In this document: positions 1,395 to 6,220 of the stretch, piece by piece
How the letters are laid out: every line of letters starts with the position of its first letter
Position numbering within the stretch: position 1 is the first letter of the stretch
NCBI GenBank assembly: GCA_002686955.1
Contig: NYZA01000201.1
Location: 1-11,091, forward strand
Direction of reading: 5' to 3'
DNA: 11,091 bases
Origin: Gemmatimonadota bacterium
Lineage (GTDB): Bacteria; GCA-2686955
Made by a program: the position numbers and the translations under genes
Notes under the pieces: generated by a model
Told to the model about the DNA's origin: nothing
The model's database searches: none
The model's input: the letters and a program-made list of their open reading frames with translations, nothing else

Positions 1395-2390
1395 TCAGAG
1401 CAGGACCAGGCCCGAACGCGCGATCGCCACCAACGCGACCAGGGCGGAGGCGGCGAAGAGGCCCGCCGAGATCGCTACATATCGCCGTGCGATCCTCGGA
1501 AGCTCGGTTTTCATGCTCGCCGGAGGCGGACGCTGCGGCAATAGACCTGCGGCGAGGCCGAACGCCGTGCCTGCGATGAGCGGAAGGTAGATCACGTAAC
1601 CGACGTGGGAGAACTCCGGTTTGAGGATGCAGAAGGGGCAGTGATGGTGGGGATGCTCGTAGACATAGGGGGAGATCGCCGACACGGTCGCCGCGATGTC
1701 GGCCACGAAGAATAGAGCAGCCGCGAGAGCGTAGACGGCGACGGCGCGCTCGAAGCGCCGCGTGAGAATCGCCAAGCCGAGAACCACCGCCAGTCCCCCG
1801 AACAGCAGGAGCAGCGCCGGTCCCGGATCGATCGCCGCCAACTCCGCCTCGATGCTTCCGGCCTCGGCCGTGAAGAGCCTGGAGCAGCACGAGGTGATCA
1901 CATCCGCGTGAAGACCCAGAAAGTAGGTGAGCTGTAAGCCCGCCGCCGCCAGCGCGAGTGGCGCCATGGCGATCAGAAGACCGTACTTTGGGCGGGTGAG
2001 CGGGTAGTCGCGTCCCTTCAGGTCGACCCGATGGACGAGCAGCCAGAGAGTCGCCCCGAAAAACACCGCTGTTTTCATCATCAGAGCGGGAAAACCGAAG
2101 GGGTTTGCGTTCAAGGTGCCCACGGCACACATCGACCCCGCGAACATCACCGACATTCGGTCCGCATTGAAGACGAAGAGCAGCAGCGAGGCCAGCTCGA
2201 GGACCATCATCCAGACGAGGGCGGTGGAGACGAGATGGGTGCGCCGCTCCATCGCGAGCTGGCGGGCGCTTCCGCTTTCGATGTCCCAGTGGCGGAGTAC
2301 TCGAATGCCGAAGCCGGCCGCCCAAACGATGGTCGCCGAGGAGAGGCCCGATGCGAGCAGCATCGCCATGATCGGCGTGTGGAAGATCAC
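1395..2390 (-). CDS. Polytopic membrane protein with His/Cys-rich CPFC motif, last gene of NosL operon
   Basis: I do not recognise a named family for this 331-residue protein. It has about eight hydrophobic segments (roughly residues 7-27, 57-77, 104-120, 137-160, 192-210, 218-240, 263-283, 305-327). Five cysteines stand out: C88 in the S-M-C-A-V-G-T stretch, the vicinal pair C168-C169, and C251/C254 in E-H-P-H-H-H-C-P-F-C. That last loop offers four histidines and a CxxC pair, suited to binding copper or another soft metal, or to thiol-disulfide exchange. The start is a GTG whose bases overlap the stop of the ATPase gene (GTGA at 2390-2387), so translation is probably coupled. Its position as the last gene of the NosL/ABC operon suggests it works with that transporter in metal or redox handling, which is inference. 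Few other functions can be argued without homologs. Confidence 0.85.
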   Translation of the reverse strand: MIFHTPIMAMLLASGLSSATIVWAAGFGIRVLRHWDIESGSARQLAMERRTHLVSTALVWMMVLELASLLLFVFNADRMSVMFAGSMCAVGTLNANPFGFPALMMKTAVFFGATLWLLVHRVDLKGRDYPLTRPKYGLLIAMAPLALAAAGLQLTYFLGLHADVITSCCSRLFTAEAGSIEAELAAIDPGPALLLLFGGLAVVLGLAILTRRFERAVAVYALAAALFFVADIAATVSAISPYVYEHPHHHCPFCILKPEFSHVGYVIYLPLIAGTAFGLAAGLLPQRPPPASMKTELPRIARRYVAISAGLFAASALVALVAIARSGLVLL

Positions 2391-3082
2391 ACGCTTCCCT
2401 CCACGACACCGCCTTCACTGATTGTTCCGTCCTCCATCGTCACGACACGATCAACGATGTCGGCGCCGCATATGCGCGGGTCGTGGCTTGCCAAGAGCAC
2501 CGTTCTTCGCTCTTCTCGGAGCCTCTCGATGATGCGGAGGAACTGTTTGGTGAGTGAGGAATCCAGATTGGCGGTCGGCTCATCGGCGATAACGATTCGC
2601 GGATCGTTGACGAGGGCGCGAGCGATGGCGACACGCTGTGCTTCGCCGCCGGAGAGATGTTCGATCTTGGTGCCCGCTCTATTCGGAATGTCCAGCATAT
2701 CGAGCAGATCGGTCGCCCTCTCGTGGAGCCGGCCATGGTCCAGTCCCAAGGGATAGGCCGGTAACATCACATTTTCGATCGCGGTCAATCCTCGGATGAG
2801 ATTGAGGCGCTGAAAAACGAATCCGAAGGTCTTGCGGCGGACCTCGGTCATGAACCTCTCGGGCAAGCCGGAAACAACTTCACCCTCGATTCCGATCCGC
2901 CCGCTCGTCGGTCGTGCGAGGCAACCGATCAAGGTCAGAAGCGTCGTCTTGCCGGATCCACTCGGCCCCTGAAGAACAGTAGTCTTGTCGCCTTCGATCT
3001 CTAGAGCTAGCTCCCGTACGGCCCGGATTTCGTTTTCCAGTCCTTCGTTATAGACCTTCGTCACTCCCTCGAGGAAGATCAT
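2387..3082 (-). CDS. ABC transporter ATP-binding protein, LolD/MacB type
   Basis: This 231-residue protein is a complete ABC ATPase. Visible motifs are Walker A G39-PSGSGKTT (39-47), Q-loop Q91, signature LSGGEAQ (143-149), Walker B IVIADEP with catalytic E168, D-loop ANLD (171-174) and switch H200. The short form and the motif style match the LolD/MacB/FtsE class that partners FtsX-type permeases, and such a permease lies directly upstream. The start is the ATG at 3082-3080, which overlaps the permease stop as ATGA. A longer open frame reaches 3376, but it lies inside the permease gene and has no ABC homology there. The transporter would power extrusion or mechanotransmission at the cytoplasmic membrane. 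NosF-like ATPases accompany NosL in nitrous oxide reductase clusters, but this protein looks closer to LolD/MacB. Confidence 0.95.
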   Translation of the reverse strand: MIFLEGVTKVYNEGLENEIRAVRELALEIEGDKTTVLQGPSGSGKTTLLTLIGCLARPTSGRIGIEGEVVSGLPERFMTEVRRKTFGFVFQRLNLIRGLTAIENVMLPAYPLGLDHGRLHERATDLLDMLDIPNRAGTKIEHLSGGEAQRVAIARALVNDPRIVIADEPTANLDSSLTKQFLRIIERLREERRTVLLASHDPRICGADIVDRVVTMEDGTISEGGVVEGSV

Positions 3083-4224
3083 CGCATCACCATATCGGGA
3101 TCGGTAGTCGCGGCGCGCCAGATCGGCACCATCGTCGCGGCCGTGTAGGGCACGATCGTGAAAAACGCCAGTGTTGCGATCTGCAGCCCGTCGATACGAG
3201 GCACAAGCGTGAAACGGGGGAAGATGACCGCCCACCCTTTGAGGACCGGATCGAGCAGGCCCGCGGAAAAGAGAAACACATGCGCATAGGCCAAAAGGAA
3301 GCCGACGACAAAGGCGCTGAGCGAGACCAGCGCTCCCTCCCAGAGCTTCATCGCCATCACATCCCTCGTCTCCCAACCGATCGCCTTCAAGATGCCGATC
3401 TCTCGTCGCTCGTCGGACGAGAGCCCCGAGGCTTTGTCGAAAGCGAAGATGGCAAAGGCCATGATCGAAGTTCCAAGGAGCGCGAGCAACAACCCCTCGC
3501 GCCAGGAGAAGACCGACTCATAGGTGCTCAACACATCGCGCCGCGTGATGAAACGGGCATCGAGCATGGTGCGTGCGGCTTTCTCGATGATGGTGTTGAT
3601 CTCACGTGGATTGCTCACCCTCAGGGCAAGATCGGTGAAGACCCCATCGGGCAACCTGAAGAAGCGGCGGAAATCGGCCTCGGACAACAGAATCAGATCG
3701 GCACTGACGATCTGGGAGTCGGAGGAGAGGAGATCATTGACGTCCAGCTTCAAGAACTCCCCCGCCGGCGACCTCAACAGGAGGGTCTCGCCGACATCGA
3801 CGCCGCGCGCGCTGGCGACACCTTGACCGATGATCGTTTCGCCGGCCTCGAGCCGGTGCTCCCGGTCGCGGGCGGATGGAACCATCAGTGTGTAGTTGGC
3901 ATCAGAGGCCGGATCGAAGAGATAGCCCCAGAGTCGCCCTTCGGCCTCTTGAACGCCACGAAAACGCTTCAGCGTCTCCAGATACGACGCGGGGACGAGA
4001 TCGTGGCGTCCCATCACCAGCCTCTGCACCATCACTTCCGGTGCGCCCGCCAGCAAAAGCGCGGCCTCTTGGCGAATCGCATGACTGAAGAGCATCACGG
4101 AGCCGAGCAAGAAGACGACCAGCGCATAGACGGCGAAAAGCATGAGGTTCCTCGCGCGCCGCCGCATCAGCGATGAAAAAGTGAAGTCGATCAAATAGCG
4201 TTGCCTCTCGATCCAGCACCTCAT
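3079..4224 (-). CDS. FtsX-like ABC transporter permease, MacB/LolC type
   Basis: This 381-residue protein has the type VII ABC permease layout: one membrane helix near the N-terminus (about 27-49), a long extracytoplasmic domain (about 50-240), then three helices (about 243-263, 296-320, 347-368). The cytoplasmic stretch E275-I-G-I-L-K-A-I-G after the second helix is the typical FtsX coupling segment that contacts the ATPase. The extracytoplasmic part contains VGETLLLRSP, as in the MacB periplasmic core, followed by a porter-like region. Type VII systems do not usually move small solutes through the membrane; they transmit force to extract lipoproteins or drive partner proteins. It overlaps its neighbours by 4 bases on both sides (ATGA at 4224-4221 and at 3082-3079). 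Substrate is unknown; the NosL gene upstream suggests a copper-related or copper-protein-related role. Confidence 0.93.
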   Translation of the reverse strand: MRCWIERQRYLIDFTFSSLMRRRARNLMLFAVYALVVFLLGSVMLFSHAIRQEAALLLAGAPEVMVQRLVMGRHDLVPASYLETLKRFRGVQEAEGRLWGYLFDPASDANYTLMVPSARDREHRLEAGETIIGQGVASARGVDVGETLLLRSPAGEFLKLDVNDLLSSDSQIVSADLILLSEADFRRFFRLPDGVFTDLALRVSNPREINTIIEKAARTMLDARFITRRDVLSTYESVFSWREGLLLALLGTSIMAFAIFAFDKASGLSSDERREIGILKAIGWETRDVMAMKLWEGALVSLSAFVVGFLLAYAHVFLFSAGLLDPVLKGWAVIFPRFTLVPRIDGLQIATLAFFTIVPYTAATMVPIWRAATTDPDMVMR

Positions 4225-4556
4225 CGACCGGCACCTCCCTCTTCCGGACGAACAAACCCCCCCTCCCTCCGATCCCGCGTCGGAGCCACCAACGAGCCGG
4301 AGGGGAAGTGATCGAGAGAGATGGGATGATCCTGAAAGGCCGAGTGTAGATCAGCCTGCGATGGGTGGCGCGTGTAACGCGCTTCGGTGAAGAGGGCGAG
4401 ATCGGTCAGACCGAGCCGGCGCACGAGCCTCGCGGTGGCCGCCTGCTCAGGTCCCGCGCCATTCGTTGCCGATGCCGCGTGGAGCAGGGCCGTGGCCACG
4501 AGGGCGCTGGCGACGACGAAAGCCCCCGCGGCGATGCTCGATCCGCGGGTCTTCAT
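4221..4556 (-). CDS. Small exported protein of unknown family in NosL operon
   Basis: This 111-residue protein is not one I recognise. Residues 1-30 form a signal peptide or anchor: a short basic start (K2, R4) followed by a long Ala/Val/Leu run ending in H-A-A-S-A, where signal peptidase I could cut. The central part (about 41-93) looks structured, with LVRRLGLTDLALFTEARYTRHP followed by HSAFQDHPISLDHFP; the histidines (H64, H71, H77, H83) could bind metal, but this is only suggestive. The tail (94-111) is charged and Gly-rich and looks disordered. There is no cysteine. The gene is real on context: its ATG overlaps the NosL stop (ATGA at 4556-4553) and its own stop overlaps the permease start. 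An extracytoplasmic partner of NosL or of the permease's large external domain is the likeliest role. Confidence 0.78.
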   Translation of the reverse strand: MKTRGSSIAAGAFVVASALVATALLHAASATNGAGPEQAATARLVRRLGLTDLALFTEARYTRHPSQADLHSAFQDHPISLDHFPSGSLVAPTRDRREGGFVRPEEGGAGR

Positions 4557-5104
4557 GGGGTCCCGGCTTTCCCTCCACCGAGGCCGAGGAGCAGCGCCGC
4601 ATCGACCTCGTCGAATGCGACGATTCGCTCGCCCTCGTGGTCCCTCATGAACTCCTCCGCGGCGCTTCGCTCCGATAGCGGTACCAGCTCGTGGCCCATC
4701 GGGCCGAGCACATCCGAACCAGAGACGAAGAACGCCGACCGGGCATCGATCCGCTTCACCTCATAGTAGTCTGTCACTCTCACCAACTCGATCTGTTCCC
4801 CGACCCGTCCCTTGGCGTATCTCTCCATCCCCAGCATGTACTTGAAGAGGTCTTTGGGGCCATCGAAGTGCTCCGCGTGCCCATCCTTGAAGAGAATCGT
4901 AGCGGCCCATTTCGGGTACTTGGCCGGGAACATGCCGCAGACGGCGCAGCGATCATGAGGCCCCGGCGCTGGCGGATCGAACGACGCAGCGGGGAGGAGC
5001 ACGGATTCCTCCGCGGGGGCCGAGGCGGTGAGGAATAATGCGATCAGAGCGCCGAACAGGATGTGGACCGTTGCGATCAACTCTCTTCGGTTCTTCGTTT
5101 TCAT
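4553..5104 (-). CDS. NosL family copper-binding protein
   Basis: This 183-residue protein has the NosL signature: R-C53-A-V-C56-G-M58 followed by F-P-A-K-Y-P-K-W, then F-K-D-G and H-F-D-G-P, and the C-terminal S-G-S-D-V-L-G-P-M136-G block. NosL proteins bind Cu(I) and help deliver copper, classically to the CuZ site of nitrous oxide reductase. Residues 1-31 form a signal peptide (basic start, hydrophobic core, T-A-S-A end). No lipobox cysteine is seen, so it may be soluble or anchored rather than a lipoprotein like classical NosL. The start is supported by GGAG at 5116-5113, eight bases upstream. It heads a five-gene operon without nosZ, so copper supply to another enzyme or copper sensing/export is more likely than denitrification. 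A perfect inverted repeat in its leader includes the ribosome binding site. Confidence 0.9.
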   Translation of the reverse strand: MKTKNRRELIATVHILFGALIALFLTASAPAEESVLLPAASFDPPAPGPHDRCAVCGMFPAKYPKWAATILFKDGHAEHFDGPKDLFKYMLGMERYAKGRVGEQIELVRVTDYYEVKRIDARSAFFVSGSDVLGPMGHELVPLSERSAAEEFMRDHEGERIVAFDEVDAALLLGLGGGKAGTP

Positions 5105-5179: not shown

Positions 5180-5800
5180 TCAGCCCATCCGCCGCACTCC
5201 GAATCCCAAGAACTCCACCTTGCCGCTGACGTAGTGATCCTTGCATTTCTCTTCGGAACAGTAGTCGGTGCTCAAGTACTTCTTGCGCGAATCCGGAAAC
5301 ACCGTTGCCACCTGTGCGTCCTCCCCCATCTTCGCCGCCACCTGCAAGGCCCCGATCAGATTCGCCCCCGACGAGATCCCTATCGGCAAGCCCAGCTCCG
5401 CCGCCACTCGCTACGCCATCAAGATAGCATCGCCGTCCCAAACGTCGACGATCTCATCGAGCCACTCGAGATCGAGGATCGATGGAACGAACTCGTCCGA
5501 GATCCCTTGGATCCGATGGTTGCCCACCTTCTTGCCGGTTCGCATCGTCGGTGAGTTCGCCGGCCCGAGCGGGTGAATCGCTACACTTTCGTCCATCCGC
5601 TCGCGCAGATGGCGCCCAACACCCATCACGGTTTCTCCCGTACCCACACCCGCGACGAAGGCCGCGGGCGCCACGTCTCGCTCGGCCATTTGAGCGACGA
5701 TTTCGGGACCGGTGCCATGATAGTGGGCTTCGATATTGGCTCGGTTGTCGAATTGGTGAGGCAGGAACACCCCACTCCTCGATTCCGCGAAGAGGGTGGC
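5180..5800 (-). pseudogene. Cysteine synthase family pseudogene (C-terminal part, in-frame TAG)
   Basis: Read from about 5800 downward, this encodes the C-terminal half of a PLP-dependent cysteine synthase (CysK-like, fold type II). Recognisable blocks are FLPHQFDN-x-ANIEAHY, TGPEI, VGTGETVMGVGRHL (the Gly-rich phosphate loop, with one Gly changed to Glu), PANSP, HRIQGISDEFVP, DAILMA, GISSGAN and KKYLSTDYC. The frame is cut by an in-frame TAG at 5413-5411 just after DAILMA, exactly where homologs usually have Gln or Arg, so a single C-to-T change of CAG would explain it. The N-terminal half, with the PLP-binding lysine, is absent; upstream sequence is the toxin-antitoxin remnant. The last 28 residues have the form typical of the longer cysteine synthase branch (DYCSEEKCKDHY, ending near VEFLGF). 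The fragment should be non-functional. Confidence 0.85.
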
Positions 5801-5947
5801 CCGATCGATGCTGCCCAAAAACCACGAAGCGAAGGCCAATCTCTCCCGCTATTACGACGCCGCGCGGCGAACGGGTGGTGATCTGCAAGCGAAACGCGCC
5901 CGCGGTGGAGTTGGTCGCGATCGAGGAGCCGCGAAGAGCCGGCGGTC
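5796..5947 (+). pseudogene. Phd/YefM-type antitoxin remnant, frameshifted
   Basis: Two adjacent plus-strand frames together give a Phd-like antitoxin. The frame starting at the ATG of 5796 (or 5808) reads N-H-E-A-K-A-N-L-S-R-Y-Y-D-A-A, the N-terminal DNA-binding part. After about 5866 the homology jumps by one base to G-E-R-V-V-I-C-K-R-N-A-P-A-V-E-L-V-A-I-E-E-P-R, the strand-turn-strand and end of the domain. This matches the usual Phd pattern of an EAK-x-NLS block followed by GE-x-VVI and PVAELV. The frameshift lies in a G/C-rich stretch near 5860-5870. The C-terminal toxin-binding tail is missing, and PIN toxin sequence follows at once. Family identity is my reading of the motifs; no homology search was run. 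Confidence 0.7.
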
Positions 5948-6040
5948 GCGCTCTTCGAATCGGCCGACACCGAGCTCTTCCTGTCCGCGGTATCGGCCTG
6001 GGAGATCCATGTCAAGCGTGCGCTCGGCAAGCTGACGTTT
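5933..6040 (+). pseudogene. PIN-domain (VapC-type) toxin fragment
   Basis: In a third plus-strand frame the sequence reads E-E-P-A-V-A-L-F-E-S-A-D-T-E-L-F-L-S-A-V-S-A-W-E-I followed by H-V-K-R-A-L-G-K-L. This is the central segment of PIN-domain toxins of the VapC group, in which the Glu of S-A-x-S-x-W-E-I is a metal-binding acidic residue. The N-terminal part with the first catalytic Asp (usually L-D-T-H) is missing, and so is a convincing C-terminal acidic motif after about 6040, although the frame stays open. The fragment directly follows the antitoxin remnant, as expected for an antitoxin-toxin pair from which the gene junction was deleted. It cannot encode a working ribonuclease. Confidence 0.68.
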
Positions 6041-6220
6041 CGATATAAGCGTGAGATCCTCGACGAGAGGACTGCGCACTGGCGGGCGGAGAGCCGTCGT
6101 TCCTGGCCAGGCAAGCCCAGCGGCTCCTCTCGGGGCGAACTTCCCGCCCCTGCGTGCCCGCGAGGCGACACTGGTCGGCGCGCCGACTTATCTTCGCTCG
6201 AAACAGCGAATCGCGCCTCT

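Follow-up and report, generated by a model that had tools for sequence, protein, structure and literature searches.

Several kinds of periplasmic metal-handling machinery are already familiar, among them NosL encoded with an ABC transporter (NosDFYL), the type VII ABC units and the mcc clusters. A standing question, relevant to climate and to the sulfur cycle, is how complex copper sites such as CuZ of nitrous oxide reductase and the copper-haem site of the sulfite reductase MccA receive their metal in the periplasm. NosL is the Cu(I) chaperone for CuZ, and CXXCXM is the Cu(I) motif of clade II type NosL (PMC6530538); anchoring through a lipobox cysteine has also been described for this protein (PMC7558416). 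A further point of reference is the FetMP-FetABCDEF iron system of C. jejuni, which has an 8-TM cysteine protein, an ABC unit and thioredoxins (PMC10783030).

The window, the 11,091-nucleotide stretch of DNA analysed here, is a complete contig of a Gemmatimonadota genome (4.28 Mb, 270 contigs, 84.5% complete) and encodes NosL in different company (Table 1). Its five genes overlap by four bases at each of four junctions (4553-4556, 4221-4224, 3079-3082 and 2387-2390), exactly where the original prediction had placed the overlaps; on the plus strand three of these read TCAT and one TCAC, that is, ATGA three times and GTGA once in gene sense. The start assumed for the ATPase, an ATG at 3082, is where its homologues begin, the mechanical ORF list having a TTG at 3376. 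Just upstream of the operon lies a decayed cysteine-synthase-like (PALP) gene (5180-5839, minus strand) with its N-terminal half missing and an in-frame TAG near 5411, and directly beside it broken plus-strand frames (5796-6060) that by eye look like a Phd-type antitoxin and a PIN-type protein.

Table 1. Genes of the five-gene operon, with positions in the window
Feature	Position	Strand	Characteristics
Membrane protein, 331 aa, eight predicted TM helices	1395..2390	-	C88, C168-C169, H249-H250-C251-x-x-C254
ABC ATPase of LolD/FtsE/MacB kind, 231 aa	2387..3082	-	Walker A GPSGSGKT, signature LSGGE
FtsX/LolC-fold ABC permease, 381 aa	3079..4224	-	TM1, periplasmic domain about 62-238, TM2-4; PF02687
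Small protein, 111 aa, one N-terminal hydrophobic segment	4221..4556	-	Conserved segment LGLTDLALFTEARYTRHPSQADLHSAFQDHPISLDHFPSGSL; family-less
NosL-domain protein, 183 aa	4553..5104	-	Pfam PF05573 96.7 bits (curated cut-off 24); PDB NosL 7osf E 8e-8

NosL is the only member of the module with a known biochemical role. The window protein, encoded by a gene that is single-copy in its genome, has an N-terminal signal or anchor, a CAVCGM motif (C53, C56, M58) that fits the clade II CXXCXM pattern, and a GPMG methionine (M136); C53, C56, G57, M58 and M136 are invariant across the 14 NosL rows of the alignment. It has no lipobox cysteine, and no cysteine at all within the first 50 residues. At two other loci (L057, 5388-6500; L058, 5724-6770) a single protein carries two fused NosL domains, the counterpart of the two separate NosL proteins seen in Proteobacteria.

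The permease is of the type VII class and not NosY-like, as the original prediction held, and both its fold matches and its FtsX domain (PF02687, 37.4 bits against a cut-off of 25.5) bear this out. In its AlphaFold2 model (pLDDT 78.8) a first helix leads into a periplasmic alpha/beta domain some 175 residues long, and three further helices follow; this layout and the C-terminal FtsX domain give the type VII architecture of four TM helices and a large periplasmic domain after TM1. In the PDB it is closest to a pneumococcal MacB-like transporter, LolE, HrtB, MacB, BceB and FtsX (Z from 20 to about 12), with a Foldseek E value of 2e-15 for LolE. As a LolCE equivalog it falls far below the cut-off (46.3 bits against 362). 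The ATPase passes the Pfam curated cut-off for ABC_tran with 104.6 bits, and scores 181.9 bits with TIGR02982, 180.4 with LolD and 172 with FtsE, each under its own curated cut-off. Unlike the ATPase-permease fusion of MacB, the two proteins are encoded by separate genes, and the window holds no MacA-type adaptor gene. The fold suggests that the unit may transmit force as a MacB/LolC-like pump, as had been proposed for it.

Two members of the module fall outside annotated families. The small protein finds no significant family in Pfam or NCBIfam, and has 25 invariant columns across 13 homologues, most of them within the conserved segment of Table 1. At two divergent loci (L059, 3450-3797; L060, 5781-6110) the usual segment is replaced by a cysteine-rich end, CLGDxPGGYCxxTSCDVV, which would suit metal binding. 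At a third (L028 in genome G073, 12604-13425, minus strand) a 273-aa membrane-anchored protein with no Pfam match stands between NosL and the small protein.

The 8-TM protein is modelled as eight long helices (pLDDT 77.3) and is invariant at C88, C168, C169, H249, H250 and C251, residues that loop charge would put, together with the other conserved cysteine and histidine positions, probably on the periplasmic face. It has no match in Pfam, NCBIfam or the PDB sequences (Pfam up to E 1 gave only DUF1129, at E 1), none in a plasmid collection, and no profile match to the DsbB/VKOR oxidoreductases. Since the fold search with its model returned generic helical bundles only, with Z under 12, no fold is claimed for it.

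The same set of genes recurs widely. A permease scan of bacterial genomes gives 13 loci at 53-60% identity, mostly in Magnetospirillum-type Alphaproteobacteria, and small protein, permease, ATPase and 8-TM protein follow in that order at all 13. Surveys with an 8-TM profile find hosts in 7 of 398 Pseudomonadota genomes, one of the seven being the survey's centre, and across Bacteria in 12 genomes besides the window's own among 386 drawn. Of 33 loci, which come from Proteobacteria and some ten further bacterial families, 31 have permease and ATPase directly next to the 8-TM gene; the two exceptions are a contig end and a rearranged locus. NosL lies within or just beyond the cluster in most loci, and is absent from the stretches read at four (L024, L050, L055, L060). 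The full order of the window recurs at L013, L023, L028 (with one extra gene), L049, L051, L052 and L054, and also at L057-L059, there with a much changed small protein. The co-occurrence of the five genes in order thus extends, as the original prediction required, to multiple loci in unrelated genomes, and because it is conserved at 24-60% identity in many of these, the arrangement is not due to chance. A quick tree places the 8-TM protein of the window together with its counterparts at L013 and L023 (SH-aLRT 98), two loci that have the same compact order. Transfer of the module between phyla is likely, given that nearly all the genomes drawn as relatives have no rank below domain in common with the genome of the window.

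The neighbours of these clusters point to copper. In many Proteobacteria the module runs on into a TlpA/ResA-like lipoprotein, an HMA protein, a Cu-type P1B-ATPase (TIGR01511, 570 bits; cut-off 397), a DsbD_2 protein and a pair of NosL proteins; DUF2946, and in some cases PCuAC, lie upstream. Two of the clusters have TonB receptors nearby, but these do not belong to the copper receptor family at its cut-off.

A closer link is seen in Campylobacter-type genomes. In one of them (G597) the module stands directly in a haem c-copper sulfite reductase cluster, whose octahaem protein scores 1276 bits against MccA (PDB 4RKM). The order mccA-PPIase-FeS-NrfD-like-CcsA (cytochrome c assembly)-...-NosL-small-FtsX-ATPase-8TM recurs, the NosL of G597 being two fused NosL domains. 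Among 199 genomes of the same order, 95 have the 8-TM protein and 17 have MccA at 62% identity or more. All 17 carry the 8-TM protein, and in all 16 that are testable its gene has the same orientation as mccA and lies 8.4-11.8 kb downstream of it (P 1.5e-6 ignoring kinship, which is uncorrected in genomes that fall in three families). Seven MccA homologues, at 47-50% identity, come from genomes that lack the module (loci L065-L071 and L077-L079), so it is not needed for every MccA-like enzyme. The idea that these homologues have lost copper-ligand cysteines was rejected, both shared non-haem cysteines being kept in all seven. Six of the seven have an extra cysteine three residues before one of the shared pair, and three loci read further have a hexahaem protein as neighbour instead of mccBCD. 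MccA as client in all hosts was likewise rejected, full-length MccA occurring only in G597 among 28 genomes searched, 27 of which carry the module and one of which is G001. At L080 of genome G813, which has a second module copy at L081, a remnant of an mcc cluster lacks mccA and mccB, has a transposase-like gene upstream and keeps the copper module intact.

The module is also found with nitrous oxide reductase. In three other genomes of the order of G597 it ends a clade II nosZ operon, beside nosDFYL, in the order nosZ, nosB, nosD, nosG, cytochromes, nosH, nosF, nosY, several NosL, small protein, permease, ATPase and 8-TM protein; nosZ scores 858-862 bits (cut-off 625) and nosD 441 bits (cut-off 300), and the names nosB, nosG, nosH, nosF and nosY rest on position and appearance. 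The nos operons at L086-L088 have up to four NosL genes and a full nosDFY set, which the type VII module follows. Because both stand in the same operon in some genomes, the module is not a substitute for NosDFY. A genome paper mentions, unanalysed, that five genes, an ABC permease and an ATPase among them, are inserted in the nos clusters of Sulfurospirillum cavolei (PMC4794192); the insertion may be this module. Across genomes, nosZ accompanies the module in 16 of the 20 hosts first examined; in the Pseudomonadota draw it is present in 5 of 6 module genomes (the centre left out) and in 54 of 391 others (Fisher P 3e-4, kinship uncorrected), and 54 of the 59 nosZ genomes there have no module. 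Yet among the 12 module genomes that the wider survey found in other bacterial families, 11 lack nosZ, several of them near 100% complete. Hosts with nosZ are thus favoured, but the module does not depend on them.

In the window itself, profile searches find neither NosZ nor NosD, as originally reported, and no copper enzyme adjoins the module. The rest of this 84.5% complete genome gives only a 21.5-bit C-terminal cupredoxin match to the NosZ model TIGR04246, on another contig; this model was used in place of PF18764 (nos_propeller), a poor probe that stays silent even in controls. MccA is not found in the incomplete assembly. A CuA-type cupredoxin fragment on contig C120 weakly suggests a haem-copper oxidase as one candidate client. 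The description of a separate, self-contained system with no nitrous oxide reductase accordingly holds for this copy, and near-complete nosZ-free hosts agree with it; it does not hold for the system, which is appended to clade II nosZ and mcc operons in some relatives.

Together, these results make it probable that the five genes encode a periplasm-facing machine for Cu(I) delivery or cuproenzyme maturation, driven by a type VII ABC unit and serving MccA and clade II nitrous oxide reductase in relatives. This upholds copper delivery or copper-protein maturation, one branch of the original prediction, as the best reading, given the role of NosL, the mcc and nos operon links and the Cu P1B-ATPase neighbours. 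Conserved genes, folds, ligand residues and operon links are its observed ground; we infer that copper is the cargo of the whole module, and likewise the direction of transfer, the coupling to ATP and the parts played by the 8-TM and small proteins. In the periplasm, NosL would bind Cu(I). With only one permease gene in the operon, the permease is probably a homodimer; together with the ATPase it would form a type VII unit like LolCDE, MacB or FtsEX, and its periplasmic domain, possibly with the anchored small protein, would receive NosL. ATP hydrolysis could then change the shape of this domain, as in LolCDE and FtsEX, and release copper towards the client apo-enzyme, while the cysteines and histidines of the 8-TM protein might keep a Cu(I) site or a thiol relay site at the membrane surface.

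Could the module instead be an accessory of NosZ, an extra maturation branch that was kept here or whose nosZ lies in the missing part of the assembly? The excess of nosZ among the first hosts and in the Pseudomonadota draw, the three operons that end with the module and the Sulfurospirillum insertion all speak for such a role, but the nosZ-free hosts of other families and the link to mccA make it unlikely. Nor is copper removal, the other branch of the original prediction, favoured. A type VII unit that strips Cu(I) from membrane or periplasm, as HrtBA does for haem, would agree with HrtB and MacB among the structural matches and with the Cu P1B-ATPase often in the same cluster. However, the module has no conserved MacA-like or TolC-like gene, nor any other conserved partner of the membrane-fusion or outer-membrane kind; HlyD and RND-like genes were its neighbours only in G073. 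Its position in mcc and nos operons agrees with copper supply and not with removal, so an efflux or detoxification pump seems highly improbable.

We think it equally improbable that the module is mainly a thiol-disulfide system, in which a DsbB/VKOR-like or DsbD-like 8-TM protein would act with TlpA to keep copper-site or haem-site cysteines reduced and the ABC unit would be auxiliary. The HHCPFC ahead of a helix in the 8-TM protein, which resembles the DsbB motif, invites this idea, as do the TlpA and DsbD_2 neighbours in Proteobacteria. So does the pairing of an 8-TM CXXC protein with an ABC unit and thioredoxins in C. jejuni FetABCDEF (PMC10783030). Yet C254 is Asp in the divergent G073 protein, the conserved cysteines number five and not two pairs, and the window's operon has no thioredoxin.

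If Cu(I) delivery is accepted as the function, the two unannotated families, small and 8-TM, gain a likely role. Because the module occurs in both kinds of operon, and also without either enzyme, copper-site filling becomes testable by gene deletion in Campylobacterota, and orphan copies can guide the search for new copper enzymes. It is about evenly balanced whether the module represents a widespread, undescribed class of energy-coupled Cu(I) insertion machine, made of NosL, a type VII ABC unit and an 8-TM relay of a new family, that has attached itself in evolution to unrelated respiratory copper enzymes and whose orphan copies point to more of them. No description of the five-gene combination was found in the open-access literature (NosL with type VII ABC names, TlpA/PCuAC, MccA), and the module, which is widely shared, is apparently undescribed.

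How, then, does it compare with the known systems? As in NosDFY-NosL, the Cu(I) chaperone NosL is encoded alongside an ABC transporter of ATPase and permease and, in the linked cases, a periplasmic copper enzyme is a neighbour, but its permease is of the FtsX/LolC type, NosD is missing from the window, and the 8-TM Cys/His protein and the small anchored protein are added. Permease fold, periplasmic domain and ATPase class are common to it and to LolCDE, MacB, FtsEX and HrtBA; however, it has one permease gene, and NosL and the 8-TM protein replace LolA, MacA-TolC or EnvC. FetMP-FetABCDEF likewise combines an 8-TM cysteine-containing protein with an ABC unit and thioredoxin, the latter present in relatives of the module, whereas the module's 8-TM protein has no DUF2318 or YHS match, FetM and FetP are absent, and the neighbours handle copper, not iron. 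The mcc cluster includes the module as one of its parts in Campylobacter-type genomes, whereas no MccA is detected in the 84.5% complete genome of the window.
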